A stretch of DNA of 6,755 nucleotides, from NCBI GenBank assembly GCA_021844725.1, contig JAKBSX010000158.1, positions 1 to 6,755 on the forward strand. The letters run 5' to 3'. The translations under genes were made by a program, and so were the position numbers. The DNA is from Actinomycetes bacterium. GTDB taxonomy: Bacteria > Actinomycetota > Acidimicrobiia > Acidimicrobiales > Acidimicrobiaceae. Positions 1 to 6,755 of this stretch are shown here, piece after piece (position 1 is the stretch's first letter; every line of letters begins with the position of its first letter). Below the pieces are notes generated by a model. It was not told where the DNA came from and ran no database searches. It saw only the letters and a list, made by a program, of their open reading frames with translations.

Positions 1-100
1 ATGATTCCGAAAAGGCCCGGGATCACGCTCGAGAGCTTTTGGCAGCTTCACGAAATTTATAGGCTAAGGAATCGACGGAGTAATAATGTTACTTACTGAC
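1..100. repeat. Left arm of a perfect 100-bp inverted repeat
   Basis: Bases 1-100 are the exact reverse complement of 1142-1241, checked ten bases at a time with no mismatch; base 101 no longer pairs with 1141. The arm holds the last codons of recN (plus strand here), the 26-bp recN-panD gap and the last codons of panD. It starts on base 1, so the repeat may extend further left than can be seen. It carries no transposon-like ends. The likeliest explanation is a fold-back chimera of amplification or assembly; a true chromosomal inverted duplication is the alternative. Confidence 0.97.
3..62 (+). pseudogene. recN: Duplicate 3' end of recN (19 codons plus stop)
   Basis: This stretch reads D-S-E-K-A-R-D-H and on to R-N-L-stop, ending with TAG at 60-62. 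It is identical in DNA and protein to the C-terminus of the full recN at 1180-2772, because it lies in the left arm of the 100-bp inverted repeat. It enters from the left edge with no start. If the junction at 1141/1142 is a chimera, this is not a second gene but the same recN tail in its native position, facing panD tail to tail. If the inversion is real, it is a duplicated gene remnant. Confidence 0.85.
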
Positions 101-445
101 AGGCCTGTTAGCTTCGTCTACATAAGTTACTAACGGATGGAAATTAGCGGCGGAATCTTCTGAAACCTGAGCAAACGAGGCGATTATCAGGAGGTCTCCA
201 ACTGCTGCAAGCCTGGCCGCAGCGCCATTTAACGAGATTGTGCCAGATCCGTGAGGAGCTTCTATGGCGTATGTAATGAATCTTTCGCCGTTATTTATGT
301 TGTAAATGTGGATCTGCTCATGGGAACGGATATCGGATGACTTCAGTAGCGCTGCATCGATTGCGCACGACCCTTCGTAATTCAATTCAGTAGCAGTTAC
401 TCTGACTCGGTGTAGCTTGCCTTTGAGCATAGTAATGTAGTTCAT
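89..445 (-). CDS. panD: Aspartate 1-decarboxylase proenzyme
   Basis: PanD removes the alpha-carboxyl group of L-aspartate to make beta-alanine, the precursor of pantothenate and so of coenzyme A, in the cytoplasm. The 118-residue protein is close to the usual length (about 115-140). It opens with the family pattern MLKGKLHR (residues 6-13; K10 and H12) and has the self-cleavage site YEGSC, where cutting between G25 and S26 makes the pyruvoyl group on S26. R55, Y59 and N73 (in SLNGAAA) correspond to E. coli active-site residues R54, Y58 and N72. The ATG at 445 is preferred over the ATG at residue 6 because GGAGG lies 7 nt upstream and because E. coli PanD starts at the equivalent place. It is convergent with the recN tail in the left repeat arm, 26 bp away, and divergent from pyrG. 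The last codons and the stop lie inside the repeat. Confidence 0.96.
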
Positions 446-452
446 CTCGGCG

Positions 453-457
453 CCTCC
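453..457 (-). promoter_or_regulatory. panD: Strong Shine-Dalgarno of panD
   Basis: GGAGG on the minus strand with a 7-nt spacer to the ATG at 445. It is the strongest ribosome binding site in the window and fixes the panD start upstream of the internal ATG at residue 6. Confidence 0.8.
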
Positions 458-525
458 GTATCGTAGTTAAAGCATAGGAGTGCAAACCCCTGGCGTTAGC
501 CATTTCAGGTCGATGCAAACCAGAA

Positions 526-542
526 TTCACGTTCGACGTGAA
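526..542. promoter_or_regulatory. 17-nt palindrome, possible operator
   Basis: TTCACGT-TCG-ACGTGAA has perfect 7-bp arms around a 3-nt centre. It sits about 80 bp upstream of panD and about 105 bp upstream of the short ORF at 648. Size and symmetry fit a binding site for a dimeric repressor. It does not match the actinobacterial SOS box and is not followed by a T run, so a terminator is unlikely. No regulator gene is in view. Confidence 0.35.
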
Positions 543-647
543 CTTGCACCAAAAACGCACCCTGCTCTATGTACAGTCTTCGATAACCTTTTGCAAACAA
601 GTTCATAGAAGTGTTCTGCTAAATATTCAAGATCAATCGGAGAAATC

Positions 648-758
648 ATGCCAATCAAAATCAACAAAATCAACAAATGGGCGGCTGAAATAGTCGACCT
701 TGATTGCGTGTCGATGACGCAGTCAACGAAACCGCTACGTCAGTCGCGATCTTCGTAG
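648..758 (+). CDS. Possible 36-residue leader peptide upstream of pyrG
   Basis: An ATG at 648 preceded by GGAGA (639-643, 4-nt spacer) opens a 36-codon frame ending with TAG at 756-758. The peptide begins MPIKINKINKWAAE, with the direct repeat AAAATCAAC behind KIN-KIN, and ends in a basic, Ser-rich tail. An extended -10-like TGCTAAATAT lies at 617-626 but no good -35 was found. The stop codon overlaps the first base of the left arm of an inverted repeat whose right arm covers the pyrG start, an arrangement seen in translational attenuators. I recognise no family. A chance frame is quite possible; the ribosome site and the position are the only support. Confidence 0.3.
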   Translation: MPIKINKINKWAAEIVDLDCVSMTQSTKPLRQSRSS

Positions 759-896
759 TGCTTAGCCACAGTTTCACGCCTTCGCATCTATCTAAAGCGA
801 TTCCTCGTTGACGTCTGGTGTAAACTCTCTCTTGGCATGCGTGTGACTGGAATTTAAATCGGGAGAGTTGGATAGTGGTGGACTTTGGCTAAGCAC
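758..896 (+). promoter_or_regulatory. 11-bp inverted repeat that could mask the pyrG start
   Basis: GTGCTTAGCCA at 758-768 is the exact reverse complement of TGGCTAAGCAC at 886-896. The right arm includes two bases of the TTG start codon (885-887) and codons 2-4. In a transcript starting upstream of 758 the arms could form an 11-bp stem closing a loop of about 117 nt and hide the start. A ribosome finishing the short ORF at 756-758 would cover the left arm and free it. A transcript starting near 865 would lack the left arm and escape. The repeat is seen; its function is inferred. Confidence 0.35.
832..859 (+). promoter_or_regulatory. Possible pyrG promoter
   Basis: TTGGCA (832-837), a 16-nt spacer and TTAAAT (854-859) resemble a housekeeping -35/-10 pair, with a good -35 and a mediocre -10 (4 of 6). 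The start of transcription would fall near 865, about 20 nt before the pyrG TTG. This is weak evidence by eye. Confidence 0.3.
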
Positions 897-1178
897 GTAT
901 TTGTAACAGGAGGGGTCGCCTCATCGTTGGGCAAGGGTCTGACCGCTTCCTCGCTCGGGAGACTCCTGAAATCTCGAGGCCTACGGGTCGTGATGCAAAA
1001 GCTCGATCCATATATAAATATCGACCCGGGTACGATGAATCCGTTCGAGCATGGAGAAGTGTTTGTCACAGACGACGGGTCTGAAACAGATTTAGACCTT
1101 GGCCACTATGAGCGTTTCGTCGATGTTAACCTTACCCGGCCGTCAGTAAGTAACATTATTACTCCGTCGATTCCTTAG
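885..1178 (+). CDS. pyrG: CTP synthase, N-terminal fragment cut at the repeat junction
   Basis: CTP synthase makes CTP from UTP, ATP and glutamine in the cytoplasm. Only the start of the N-terminal synthetase domain is here. [14 protein letters not shown] (residues 5-18) holds the ATP-binding P-loop, and [17 protein letters not shown] and [23 protein letters not shown] are near-invariant in the family. The sequence is family-like up to R85-P86; residues 87-97 are read from the 100-bp inverted repeat and are not CTP synthase, before a TAG at 1176-1178. A full enzyme has about 530-550 residues, so over 80% is missing, including the whole glutaminase domain. The TTG at 885 is the only usable start after an in-frame stop at 873. 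The ribosome site is weak (GGTGG at 877-881, 3-nt spacer). The break is probably an artefact, as the gene is generally essential. Confidence 0.93.
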
Positions 1179-1241
1179 CCTATAAATTTCGTGAAGCTGC
1201 CAAAAGCTCTCGAGCGTGATCCCGGGCCTTTTCGGAATCAT
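1142..1241. repeat. Right arm of the perfect 100-bp inverted repeat
   Basis: This is the exact reverse complement of 1-100. Here the sequence forms the 3' end of the full-length recN and 38 bp beyond its stop, joined at 1141/1142 to a pyrG gene broken inside codon 86. The bases before the join are similar in both contexts (CGGCC-GTCAG on the pyrG side, AGGCCT-GTCAG on the panD side). Such short shared sequence is expected where a polymerase switched template. Confidence 0.97.
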
Positions 1242-2802: not shown

Positions 2803-3657
2803 TTACTCGCCCATTTCCTTCGAATGCAATCCAAACTTTTTTTTAAGAATCTCATGAAAATCACGTTCGGCAAAAGTAACCAGGCACGCTGGGGCCTCAT
2901 TGGCACTGCATCGTACCAGATCTCCGGGATCCAAAATCAGTTTCTGGGAACCGTCAATCATGACTGCTGCAGATGGCCCAGCCGCGAGCTTGAGTTCGAC
3001 TGTTTCTTTCGGCTCTAGTACCAAAGACCGGTCGAAAAGCATATGTGGGCTTATCGGCGTGAGAATCATGGCTCTTAGGCGCGGGGAGACAACGGGCCCC
3101 CGAGCAGAGAAGCTATACGCTGTCGATCCTGTAGGGGTGCTTACAATAAGGCCGTCGGCTTCGTAGGTTAGGAAATTCGAGCTTCCAAACACAACCCGCA
3201 CCCTAATTACGTGACCTGAATCTAACTTTTCCACAACGAGATCGTTTAAGGCAACAAAATGTCTTCGGAAAAAAGGCTGAATGTCGGGTGATTCCGAAAT
3301 AGCTTCATATTTCTCGACCTCCACTGATAGCGTCATGCGCTCTTCAACCCGATATTCACCCCTAAAAAACTTCTCAAGTGAGCCATAGAGGCCTTTGGGG
3401 TCAATTTGCGTAAGATACCCAAGTGAGCCGAAATTCACACCCAGCACAGGAATTGGAGATGGCAGGATTTTATCGATGGCTCGAAGCATCGTGCCGTCCC
3501 CACCCAAGGATACAACCAGGTCAAGTCCATCCTCAGACCAGCTTTCGCCCATATAAATTGCCCGGTGATCTCTTGAGTAAAGCCACCTTTCAAGTTCGTC
3601 TGCCTTGGCCCGAGCACTCTCTCGCTGCGGGTGGTATACGATACCTACGTTTGCCAT
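2803..3657 (-). CDS. nadK: NAD kinase
   Basis: NadK phosphorylates NAD to NADP using ATP or polyphosphate in the cytoplasm. The 284-residue protein has the full family set: LGGDGTML (51-58, with D54), NFGSLGYL (75-82), ALNDLVVEK (136-144) and the long motif YEADGLIVSTPTGSTAYSFS (165-184). The next stretch reads SARGP instead of the more common SAGGP, with Arg at 186; I believe some actinobacterial relatives share this, so loss of function is not implied. The start is ATG at 3657, 24 nt after the tlyA stop, with no clear Shine-Dalgarno, which suggests coupling to tlyA translation. Eight A residues near the 3' end form A AAA AAG in frame. The order tlyA-nadK-recN is conserved in many bacteria. 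Confidence 0.97.
   Translation of the reverse strand: MANVGIVYHPQRESARAKADELERWLYSRDHRAIYMGESWSEDGLDLVVSLGGDGTMLRAIDKILPSPIPVLGVNFGSLGYLTQIDPKGLYGSLEKFFRGEYRVEERMTLSVEVEKYEAISESPDIQPFFRRHFVALNDLVVEKLDSGHVIRVRVVFGSSNFLTYEADGLIVSTPTGSTAYSFSARGPVVSPRLRAMILTPISPHMLFDRSLVLEPKETVELKLAAGPSAAVMIDGSQKLILDPGDLVRCSANEAPACLVTFAERDFHEILKKKFGLHSKEMGE
2836..2842 (-). promoter_or_regulatory. Slippery heptamer A AAA AAG at the nadK 3' end
   Basis: On the minus strand nadK reads CTT AAA AAA AAG TTT (the K-K-K of residues about 272-274), giving A AAA AAG in the phase that supports -1 slippage in dnaX. Slipped ribosomes would skip the nadK stop, add 24 residues and end at TGA (2763-2765), which overlaps recN codons 3-4. 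That could couple the two genes. No stimulatory stem or upstream Shine-Dalgarno was established, so this is only a candidate. Confidence 0.25.
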
Positions 3658-3681: not shown

Positions 3682-4524
3682 TTAGGTTTCAAACTGATCA
3701 TCGTTGGAAACTCCTTGCGCCTGGAGTATTTCTCTCTCGATAGCTTTCTCTAAAGAATTCGAAATTTGGCGTATAGGCAATTTAGAGATGTAGAGAAAGA
3801 ACTCTGCGTTCCCTTGGGCTCCACGTATTTTTGAAAGTGCAACATCAATTACTGAGACATTGTATTGCGCGAATTCGTGAGCCGTGGTCAAGATCGCTGT
3901 CCTCCAAAGTGCCGGATCTCGGATCACCCCTTTTCCCTTCGATGCGTCCCTATGACCCACTTCAAATTGTGGCTTCACTAAGATGACAAGTTGACCATCA
4001 GAACGCGTCAAGTTAAGAAGATGCTTGGTCAGATGGCGAATCGAGGTGAAGGAGACATCGACAACCACGAGGTCGAATCCGGAACGCTCTGGATCAATGA
4101 AGTCTTTGATGTTAGTTTGCTCAAAACTTTTCACACGGGCATCAAAGCGAACCTTCTCGTGAAGCTGGTTCGTACCAACGTCCACCGCGCATACTGCTCG
4201 AGCTCCATTCTGGAGCAAGCAATCCGTAAATCCTCCGGTCGAACTCCCCACATCCAAAACGCGAAGTCCAGAAACGTCTATTGAAAATCGCTGCAACGAT
4301 GCCTCTAACTTGAGCCCGCCGCGCGAGACAAAGCGCGGCGGCATAGTGACTTCTATTCGGTCCCCTTTTCGGACTTGTCGTGCCGGCTTCAAGGCAACGG
4401 AACCGTTTACAAGCACCTTTCCCTCACGGGTTAAGTCGCAAGCAGCCTCCCGCGATCCCGCAAGGCGATGCATAACAAGGGCTGCGTCAAGACGCATCTG
4501 CAACATTACCGTAGCATCGCTCAT
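3682..4524 (-). CDS. tlyA: TlyA family rRNA (cytidine-2'-O)-methyltransferase
   Basis: TlyA-type enzymes use S-adenosylmethionine to 2'-O-methylate cytidines in 16S and 23S rRNA (the capreomycin-sensitivity sites in mycobacteria); the older name is hemolysin. The numbers here count from a TTG at 4548. An S4 RNA-binding domain (about 17-70) is followed by an FtsJ/RrmJ methyltransferase fold. The linker reads PRFVSRGGLKLE, the SAM-binding loop is DVGSSTGGFTDCLL (99-112), and the K-D-K-E set is K80, D164 (in VVVDVSF), K192 (in LVKPQFEVG) and E249 (in GNAEFFL). I prefer the ATG at 4524, codon 9 of the longest frame, giving 280 residues: it has AAGAG 8 nt upstream and family members begin close to the S4 domain. 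The start at 4548 is the alternative. It lies first or second in the run with nadK and recN. Confidence 0.94.
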   Translation of the reverse strand: MSDATVMLQMRLDAALVMHRLAGSREAACDLTREGKVLVNGSVALKPARQVRKGDRIEVTMPPRFVSRGGLKLEASLQRFSIDVSGLRVLDVGSSTGGFTDCLLQNGARAVCAVDVGTNQLHEKVRFDARVKSFEQTNIKDFIDPERSGFDLVVVDVSFTSIRHLTKHLLNLTRSDGQLVILVKPQFEVGHRDASKGKGVIRDPALWRTAILTTAHEFAQYNVSVIDVALSKIRGAQGNAEFFLYISKLPIRQISNSLEKAIEREILQAQGVSNDDQFET

Positions 4525-4629
4525 GTCATTAACTCTTGATTGAACCAATTTGCAAAACTTGGTATATCACTGTTCAGGTACCGACCCCATAGAAAATCGT
4601 TCCGTTACCAGAGTTGTCATCATGGGCTT

Positions 4630-5214
4630 CTAGCTTTTGCTGGATTTAGGGTTCGCCTTTAGGGCAGTTCCCTTCTTTTCCGGTACCTCAGCTGTCGTGG
4701 CCTTTGGTTTGGCGGGGGTCCTCGTTCTTGCAGCTCTTGGCTTTGGGGGATCGGCGTCGGCCATAGTAGCGGGCTTCTCGTCGCCACCTGTTCCAGATTT
4801 CTCGCCCCTGGGTTCCTCTGCCGTTGTCTCGGATTTTTGAATTAGGTGAACTAGAGAATTGACCATCTCTGTCAACTTGGTCAATTCGTCTCTGATCAAG
4901 GTAACCTTACCAATTTCCTGGCTCATGCTGGCAAGCCTCTCGGAGAATTTTCCTAGTTCTTCTTTCGATATGGTGTTTGCAGCGAGGATCTGCTTTTCGA
5001 TCTCCCTTCGAAAGCTCTTTATGAGGAGATCGGAGCTTTCTCGGCTTTTCTTCGCCGCATCCTCAAACATGTCTCGCATCTGGTTCCTCTGTGTTTCAGA
5101 GATGTGTGCCACATCGCGGAGGGCTTCCTCTGCCTTAGCTTGTGCAAGTTTGGCAACGGATAGGCCAGTCTCAACCAGCTTTCCAATTTTCTGAGTGCCA
5201 TCTTTCCCTGCCAT
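4630..5214 (-). CDS. Phasin-like helical protein with a basic Ala/Pro/Lys tail
   Basis: Residues 1-128 are rich in A, E, K, L and Q and look almost wholly helical. The pattern of an A-x-x-KAEE start, a central charged helix (SFRREIEKQIL), then ISKEELGKFSERLASMSQEI resembles the phasin-related family COG3937 (PHA synthesis regulator phasin). Residues 129-194 form a disordered tail of K, A, P, T and S, with repeats such as PAKPKATT, like histone-H1-type tails of PhaF-type phasins that bind DNA. There is no signal peptide or membrane segment. The ATG at 5214 has AAGGA with a 7-nt spacer (5222-5226). It is on the tlyA strand, 105 bp upstream of the tlyA ATG. No PHA synthase is in view, so a granule role is unproven; chromatin or envelope association is also possible. 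The family call is moderate. Confidence 0.6.
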   Translation of the reverse strand: MAGKDGTQKIGKLVETGLSVAKLAQAKAEEALRDVAHISETQRNQMRDMFEDAAKKSRESSDLLIKSFRREIEKQILAANTISKEELGKFSERLASMSQEIGKVTLIRDELTKLTEMVNSLVHLIQKSETTAEEPRGEKSGTGGDEKPATMADADPPKPRAARTRTPAKPKATTAEVPEKKGTALKANPKSSKS

Positions 5215-5487: not shown

Positions 5488-5502
5488 GCAGAGAGACCAG
5501 GC
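5488..5502. repeat. 15-nt inverted match to the right edge, arm 1
   Basis: GCAGAGAGACCAGGC, ending one base before the dgt ATG, is the exact reverse complement of 6741-6755, the last 15 bases of the window. It includes the purine-rich GAGAGA that is the best dgt ribosome-site candidate. See the partner arm for interpretation. Confidence 0.9.
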
Positions 5503-5503
5503 T

Positions 5504-6649
5504 ATGTCATTATCACCTCGCGCAAATAGATGGATTGAGACCTCAAGGGGATACGTCCTTGCCAACGGGACCGTGGCGGCCCACGAACATTTTGATGCTT
5601 CAAGGCTGCAACCGCTGCTAATTACAAGGGAACGGCGCGAAACCTTCGAACGAGAATATCTATCAAAGGGTGCAACGTTATCTTACGGGGCAGGAGACCG
5701 GAGAATTCCAGAGAAACCTGATCCGCTGCGCACGGCCTTCGAGCGTGACAGGGATAGGATCGTTCATTCGACATCGTTTCGACGGCTCGCGGGAAAGACC
5801 CAGGTCTTCATCTTTCCCACCGATCACCAAAGGACCCGCTTAACGCATGCCCTGGAAGTGGCGCAAGTTGCGACGGCTGTGTCCAGGGCGATTGGGCTGA
5901 ATGTTGCACTAACCGAAGCGATAGCGTTTGGGCATGATTGCGGGCATGGGCCTGGAGGGCACGCAAGCGAGGACGCTTTTTCAAAGTTTCTTCCAGAGGG
6001 ATTTGACCACGCAACGTGGGGTGCGGACCATACCCTTGTTGACCTAAACCTTTGTTCGGAGACACTAGACGGTATTCGCAACCACTCATGGTCACGGCCT
6101 CAGCCCAGAACCCCTGAGGGAACGGTTGTATCTTTTGCTGACCGCATCGCATATTGTGCGCACGATTTGGAGGATGCCATCAGGGCTGGAATAGTAAAGA
6201 GTGATGGTCTTCCATTGGCGGTTGTCGAGGTTGCTGGAGGTTCTCGGGATCAGCAGTTGAGCTACTTTATTTTGGACTTGGTAGAGACTGTAGTTCGAAC
6301 GGGCCAGGTGGCTTTATCGGAATTGGCCGCAGACTCTTTGGCTGAGCTAAGGGAATTCAATTACAAGTCCATCTACATGCGACCCGAATCAGTCGAGCAA
6401 TCACATTCCGTAATTCGCGTCTTGAGCTTGCTGGTGGAGTATTACGTCGAGAATCCTGGCGAAAATCCCATCTTCCCCGGAATTGAATCAGACGATGTAC
6501 AGCCCGGACGAATTGACGCTGCCGTAGGGTACGTGTCTGGAATGACCGATAGGTTTGCATTCTGGAAAGCCAACGAGAAACTTGGGCTTAGTCTAGAGGC
6601 ACTACCACTTGGAATTGATGTTTCTCAAATAGCATGGAGCCGTCGCTAA
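5504..6649 (+). CDS. dgt: HD-domain deoxyguanosinetriphosphate triphosphohydrolase-like protein
   Basis: Dgt-family enzymes cut dNTPs to a deoxynucleoside and triphosphate, helping to set dNTP pools in the cytoplasm. The family core begins at PLRTAFERDRDRIVHSTSFRRLAGKTQVF (split here as 74-87 and 88-102). The metal-binding HD set is H115 (RLTHALEVAQVA), H144-D145 (FGHDCGHGPGGHASEDAF) and D213 (FADRIAYCAHDLEDAI); RNHSWSR follows the HD loop as usual. At 381 residues it is the shorter dGTPase-like type, though it carries some 40 extra residues before RERRETFE. The start is ATG at 5504 with only a weak GAGAGA upstream. Its C-terminus ends 10 bp from the stop of the convergent EamA-like gene. Substrate preference cannot be read from the sequence. 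Confidence 0.95.
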   Translation: MSLSPRANRWIETSRGYVLANGTVAAHEHFDASRLQPLLITRERRETFEREYLSKGATLSYGAGDRRIPEKPDPLRTAFERDRDRIVHSTSFRRLAGKTQVFIFPTDHQRTRLTHALEVAQVATAVSRAIGLNVALTEAIAFGHDCGHGPGGHASEDAFSKFLPEGFDHATWGADHTLVDLNLCSETLDGIRNHSWSRPQPRTPEGTVVSFADRIAYCAHDLEDAIRAGIVKSDGLPLAVVEVAGGSRDQQLSYFILDLVETVVRTGQVALSELAADSLAELREFNYKSIYMRPESVEQSHSVIRVLSLLVEYYVENPGENPIFPGIESDDVQPGRIDAAVGYVSGMTDRFAFWKANEKLGLSLEALPLGIDVSQIAWSRR

Positions 6650-6659
6650 CCACTAGGTC

Positions 6660-6755
6660 TCAGATCACGTTCCCTTTGGTCGATTGAAGAAGAAAATGAC
6701 GTCCAAGAAGTATGACGCCAGCTCCGATAACGGCAACAATGCCTGGTCTCTCTGC
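6660..6755 (-). CDS. C-terminal end of an EamA/DMT-type membrane transporter (partial)
   Basis: The minus strand reads 31 codons in from the right edge to TGA at 6660-6662. The residues AERPGIVAVIGAGVILLGRH match the typical end of drug/metabolite transporter (EamA) proteins, where a GER-P turn is followed by a last membrane helix with IGA-x-x-ILLG, then a short polar tail (QSTKGNVI). Only the final helix is present, so the substrate is unknowable. The gene is convergent with dgt, 10 bp between stops, with no terminator hairpin visible. The first five codons overlap the 15-nt inverted match; they fit the family, which argues they are native here. Confidence 0.55.
   Translation of the reverse strand, partial: AERPGIVAVIGAGVILLGRHFLLQSTKGNVI
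6741..6755. repeat. 15-nt inverted match at the right edge, arm 2
   Basis: The last 15 bases are the exact reverse complement of 5488-5502; base 6740 no longer pairs. The match reaches the window edge, so its full length is unknown. One chosen 15-mer would find an exact partner in a window of this size by chance only about once in 100,000 times. It mirrors the left edge, where an inverted repeat also starts exactly at the boundary, and may mark a second fold-back junction. Confidence 0.85.

Follow-up and report, generated by a model that had tools for sequence, protein, structure and literature searches.

Does a pyrG gene that breaks off inside codon 86 and runs directly into a reversed copy of the panD/recN tail reflect a rearrangement in a living cell, or was the arrangement made in the laboratory? 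The question is raised by the stretch of DNA analysed here, 6,755 nucleotides in all, to which we refer as 'the window'. The protein cluster to which the window's recN protein belongs comprises three contigs, of which the longest measures 6,755 bases; the window is therefore likely to be an entire contig, beginning and ending where the contig does. From left to right it carries panD (minus strand), a dioxygenase remnant and the start of pyrG (plus strand), then recN, nadK, tlyA and a phasin-like gene (all minus), and finally dgt (plus). The panD gene, for aspartate 1-decarboxylase, is unbroken (89–445; TIGR00223, 139.6 bits against a cut-off of 106; PF02261). It is followed by the first 24 codons of a gene for what we take, from its sequence, to be a TauD-like dioxygenase (648–719, plus strand; 71% identical over 24 amino acids to the protein of the related locus L146), and by the start of pyrG, for CTP synthase, of which 85 whole codons precede the break (885–1141; PF06418, positions 1–84 of 265). 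The remaining genes are recN, for a DNA repair protein (1180–2772; TIGR00634, 403.9 bits, just below the cut-off of 407.85); nadK, for NAD kinase (2803–3657; PF01513 and PF20143); a tlyA-type rRNA methyltransferase gene (3682–4548; TIGR00478, 208.2 bits, cut-off 185.8); the phasin-like gene (4630–5214; PF05597, 27.8 bits, just below the cut-off of 28.8); and dgt, for a dGTP triphosphohydrolase-like protein (5504–6649), which scores above cut-off with PF01966 and PF13286 and, at 290.4 bits, under the cut-off of 393 for NF002327. The calls of panD, the pyrG N-terminus and recN made in a first-pass annotation of this DNA are thus upheld by profile matches.

That annotation had claimed that bases 1–100 equal the reverse complement of bases 1142–1241, and an exact string test bears this out: 100 of 100 bases agree, with zero mismatches. 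The left arm (1–100, plus strand) holds the 3' end of recN, whose stop codon is read on the plus strand at 60–62, a 26-bp gap, and the stop and last three codons of panD in antisense. The right arm (1142–1241, minus strand) holds the same bases reversed, and its right-hand neighbour is the body of recN, in native continuity. Between the arms lies a loop of 1,041 bases (101–1141, plus strand) with most of panD, the dioxygenase remnant and the pyrG start. The identity ends at base 100, since base 101 is an A where its counterpart, the complement of base 1141, is a G; on the other side the left arm is cut by the window start. An exact inverted repeat of this length cannot be due to chance. Among 151 related loci (1,655,898 nt, with bases in overlapping loci counted repeatedly; the middle is unique in 135 of the loci) there are no exact inverted repeats of 75 nt or more, the longest being one of 54 nt in L038. 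The last codons of panD run unbroken over 100/101 and align with those of six relatives, so the left copy also has its native right-hand neighbour. As read from the bases, then, the foreign contact is 1141/1142, and the right copy is the one that keeps the native recN body.

What the native order looks like can be judged from relatives. An alignment search with recN against genome contigs, from which the best 80 of 467 loci were kept, gave no relative more than 43% identical among those 80. A class-wide recN search of 395 genomes found matches in 359, one of them, in G368, much closer; and a search of the family around G368 (42 genomes, 39 with a recN match) yielded six relatives with recN 55–64% identical to that of the window (loci L146–L151). 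Their panD proteins are 82–86% identical to the window's, and their pyrG N-termini 96–98%. No closer relative emerged from a gene-order search of 99 genomes drawn from a larger group; viral contigs gave six loci with recN at only 29–34% identity, from which nothing was gained, and phage records gave no match.

In all six close relatives nadK and recN point toward panD, which faces them on the opposite strand, and pyrG follows farther on in the direction of recN. In five of the six, tlyA and, behind it, the phasin-like gene come before nadK; the contig of the sixth, L149, breaks off within nadK and thus short of both. dgt is absent from the L148 contig, and the L146 contig ends in it. Past the point that corresponds to the join, pyrG is uncut in 6/6, with the motif LTR[PT]SSVTTGSIYSS; in five it is open for 535 codons from the shared N-terminal motif to the stop, and in L150 for 349 codons, reaching the contig end. 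If the window is unfolded, by writing the reverse complement of 6755–1242 followed by 1–1141, it reproduces the relatives' order, minus the missing dioxygenase. A related genome with the printed arrangement had been named as one of the observations that would speak against an artefact; not one of the six close relatives shows it. In the wider sample, recN and pyrG lie on the same strand in each of the 75 loci with matches to both, and on opposite strands in none, overlapping loci of one genome being counted apart. In 49 of these 75 loci pyrG begins less than 500 bases behind recN, unlike in L146–L151, in which panD and recN converge and pyrG is preceded by a dioxygenase-like frame, a short one in L148. 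panD was matched, among the 151 loci, only in the loci of the six close relatives (13 loci).

The first-pass annotation had further claimed that a second copy of the recN end is joined to the inside of pyrG. It is: pyrG is cut at 1141/1142, after 85 whole codons. A search for proteins like the cut pyrG found none more than 94% identical among the best 120 of 7,992 matches, and so gave no sign of a second copy of the join. The result carries little weight, as candidates ranged from 0.55 to 1.75 times the query length and the window's own fragment is likewise not among the best 120. Nor could a same-species, uncut pyrG be told by its protein, so alike are PyrG N-termini between species: across the 86 compared residues, that of L146 is the same as the window's in all but the translated start residue.

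The same annotation saw a similar short sequence on both sides of the join as support for template switching. The similarity is real and slight. Eight of 14 aligned bases agree, a degree of likeness found in 1.2% of 20,000 position pairs drawn at random from the window. The joined flanks share the word GGCC, one base out of register and within the last six bases, which is matched by 3.5% of random pairs and so goes only modestly beyond chance. Beyond the join, to judge by the relatives' pyrG, the bases possibly shared number 0 to about 4: in 6/6 relatives the second and third bases after the position of 1141 are TC, and in 1/6 a matching G stands before the TC. The flanks may thus speak weakly for priming on a short word. 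The words used in assembly are usually far longer than four bases. Since the flanks share only a four-base word, a merge by the assembler is unlikely, and the join was likely already present in the DNA molecules or reads.

The finding on 1–1241 in the first-pass annotation makes no mention of the other end of the window, where a second inverted join, smaller than the first, likely lies, to judge from the bases and the proteins that they encode. Besides the 100-base arms, the window contains a single exact inverted repeat at least 13 nt long: the last 15 bases (6741–6755, minus strand) match exactly, in reverse, a native 15-mer that ends one base before the dgt start codon (5488–5502, plus strand), the loop between them being 1,238 nt. 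The join would fall at 6740/6741 or, if the GCC at 6741–6743 is shared, within that word. Translated on the minus strand, the right end reads AERPGIVAVIGAGVILLGR..., the C-terminus of what we presume, from its sequence, to be an MFS-type transporter. Its tail proper, IVAVIGAGVILLGR (6660–6740, minus strand), aligns with L147 and others, and the gene is convergent with dgt, as in seven relatives. A search of the family with the L147 transporter protein found matches in 38 of 42 genomes, and 15 loci were retrieved. In all seven with the transporter beside dgt the motif W-x-[VI]-N-G is kept, where the window has A-E-R-P-G. One of the seven is L157 (G426), where stop codons interrupt the transporter gene beside dgt at three internal positions. 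The other eight transporter loci are more distant (47–50% identical) and have no dgt match; none of them has W-x-[VI]-N at that place, so that the motif is binding only for close kin. Because the 15-mer encodes AERP against the kept motif, the last 12–15 bases are likely the reversed region upstream of dgt. None of 302 ends of other loci carries a 15-nt inverted copy of itself, many of these loci being cut-outs and not whole contigs. Flank similarity at the right join is at the level of chance (equalled by 26% of random pairs), apart from the possibly shared GCC.

Very probably, then, a chimeric molecule underlies the contig of the window, most plausibly one made during whole-genome amplification. 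The reading as a fold-back chimera, proposed in the first-pass annotation, draws its support from the unflipped gene order and the uncut pyrG of all six relatives and from the common strand of recN and pyrG in 75 of 75 loci. We infer strand-displacement amplification (MDA) as the cause. A growing strand would leave its template and continue on the opposite strand about one kilobase away. In one direction, a strand that had been copied through recN and panD and into pyrG as far as 1141 would prime at native position 100 of the opposite strand, and copying would then proceed back through the panD/recN border; in the other, the jump would be from the end of panD into pyrG. Both directions fit equally well. 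The join is likely a laboratory copying artefact of an ordinary kind, and not a feature of the living cell.

The length of the arm probably comes from the assembly. An assembler would end a contig one overlap length before a fork in its graph, which would account for an arm of 100 bases: the final word ahead of the split into a native and a chimeric continuation would be the arm itself. A k-mer overlap had been put forward as something that the 100-bp length might reflect instead of a chimera. Overlap likely does set the arm length, but it is no alternative to the chimera; in all likelihood it only fixes where the contig starts, and adds to the chimera without replacing it. A single assembler overlap length does not fit both ends of the window, as the arm at the right end is 15 nt and not 100.

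Joins of this kind have been documented. Lasken and Stockwell (2007; PMC1855051) sequenced the MDA product of one E. coli cell; by the figures given there, inverted joins made up 406 of the 475 chimeras, and in 337 of those 406 the segments lay less than 10 kb apart; complementary bases were present at 93.5% of inverted joins spanning less than 10 kb, and 2–21 complementary bases at more than 70% of all joins. The two inverted joins of the window, with loops of 1,041 and 1,238 bases inside 6.8 kb, resemble these published chimeras: the second segment is reversed with respect to the native orientation known from the six relatives, the segments come from one locus and lie well within 10 kb of one another at both the left and the right join, and the join may have a short complementary word close by. 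The window differs in that its shared word is not securely longer than chance, and in that amplification is here a deduction. A second precedent is the description, in the account of Pacasus (PMC6218980), of artificial palindromes that arise after whole-genome amplification and surface as inverted duplications in assemblies. The window, too, is an inverted duplication, likely artificial, that reached an assembly; unlike those palindromes, which are described for long reads, it has arms that are cut by contig ends.

A chimera could also have come from another laboratory step, such as snap-back during end repair, template switching in PCR, or a hairpin adapter missed in long reads. Such steps also yield inverted joins, and missed adapters are known to give palindromic long reads (PMC6218980). 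We nevertheless consider this origin unlikely. A chimera that arose once, as a rare event in library preparation, would not often come to dominate an assembly, loops of 1.0–1.2 kb at both ends would better fit amplified, branched DNA, and a missed hairpin adapter would be expected to leave no loop at all.

An inversion formed by folding back inside the cell, that is, an inverted duplication that sets a cut pyrG beside a reversed recN while an uncut pyrG persists elsewhere, would account for the exactness of the repeat as well, for a very recent duplication is also free of mismatches. We regard it as very unlikely. It would break a CTP synthase gene, it produces an order met in no close relative and an opposition of recN and pyrG met in none of the 75 loci, and it does not explain the inverted join at the far end of the window, where the loop is similar. 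There is just as little reason to credit the idea that single cells of this uncultivated actinobacterial lineage carry pyrG-cutting inverted duplications with kilobase loops, as signs of an ongoing template-switch rearrangement of the chromosome in vivo. A pure assembly error, in which the assembler joined two paths by way of a common word with no chimeric molecule behind them, is suggested by an arm of exactly 100 bases starting at base 1, much like an assembler overlap, but is extremely improbable, given that the overlap accounts for the arm and not for the join, and that the joined sequences share only a four-base word within their last six bases and, to judge by the relatives, 0 to about 4 beyond.

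With a laboratory chimera as the preferred reading, the value of the finding is one of quality control and curation only. Curators would do best to break the contig at 1141/1142 and to treat its last 15 bases with suspicion. The shortened pyrG should not be counted among pseudogenes, nor should synteny studies take up the apparent inversion of recN and pyrG. Both joins can be detected from the contig alone, through exact inverted copies of the contig ends.

Two minor features lie within the left loop. One is an imperfect inverted repeat (758–772 and 882–896; 14 of 15 bases), which we considered as a third fold-back and rejected: it has no extension, and its E value within the window is 0.086. 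Its 882–896 arm covers the start of pyrG, and the match is near chance level. The other is the gap in the dioxygenase gene. Between panD and pyrG (648–884) only the first 24 codons are present, the rest being absent, and the bases at 720–815 have no clear match in the relatives. The loss could be either natural decay or a further chimera, in direct orientation. In five of the six relatives the dioxygenase frame is open for at least 293 codons, counted from stop to stop, and in L148 it has 149.
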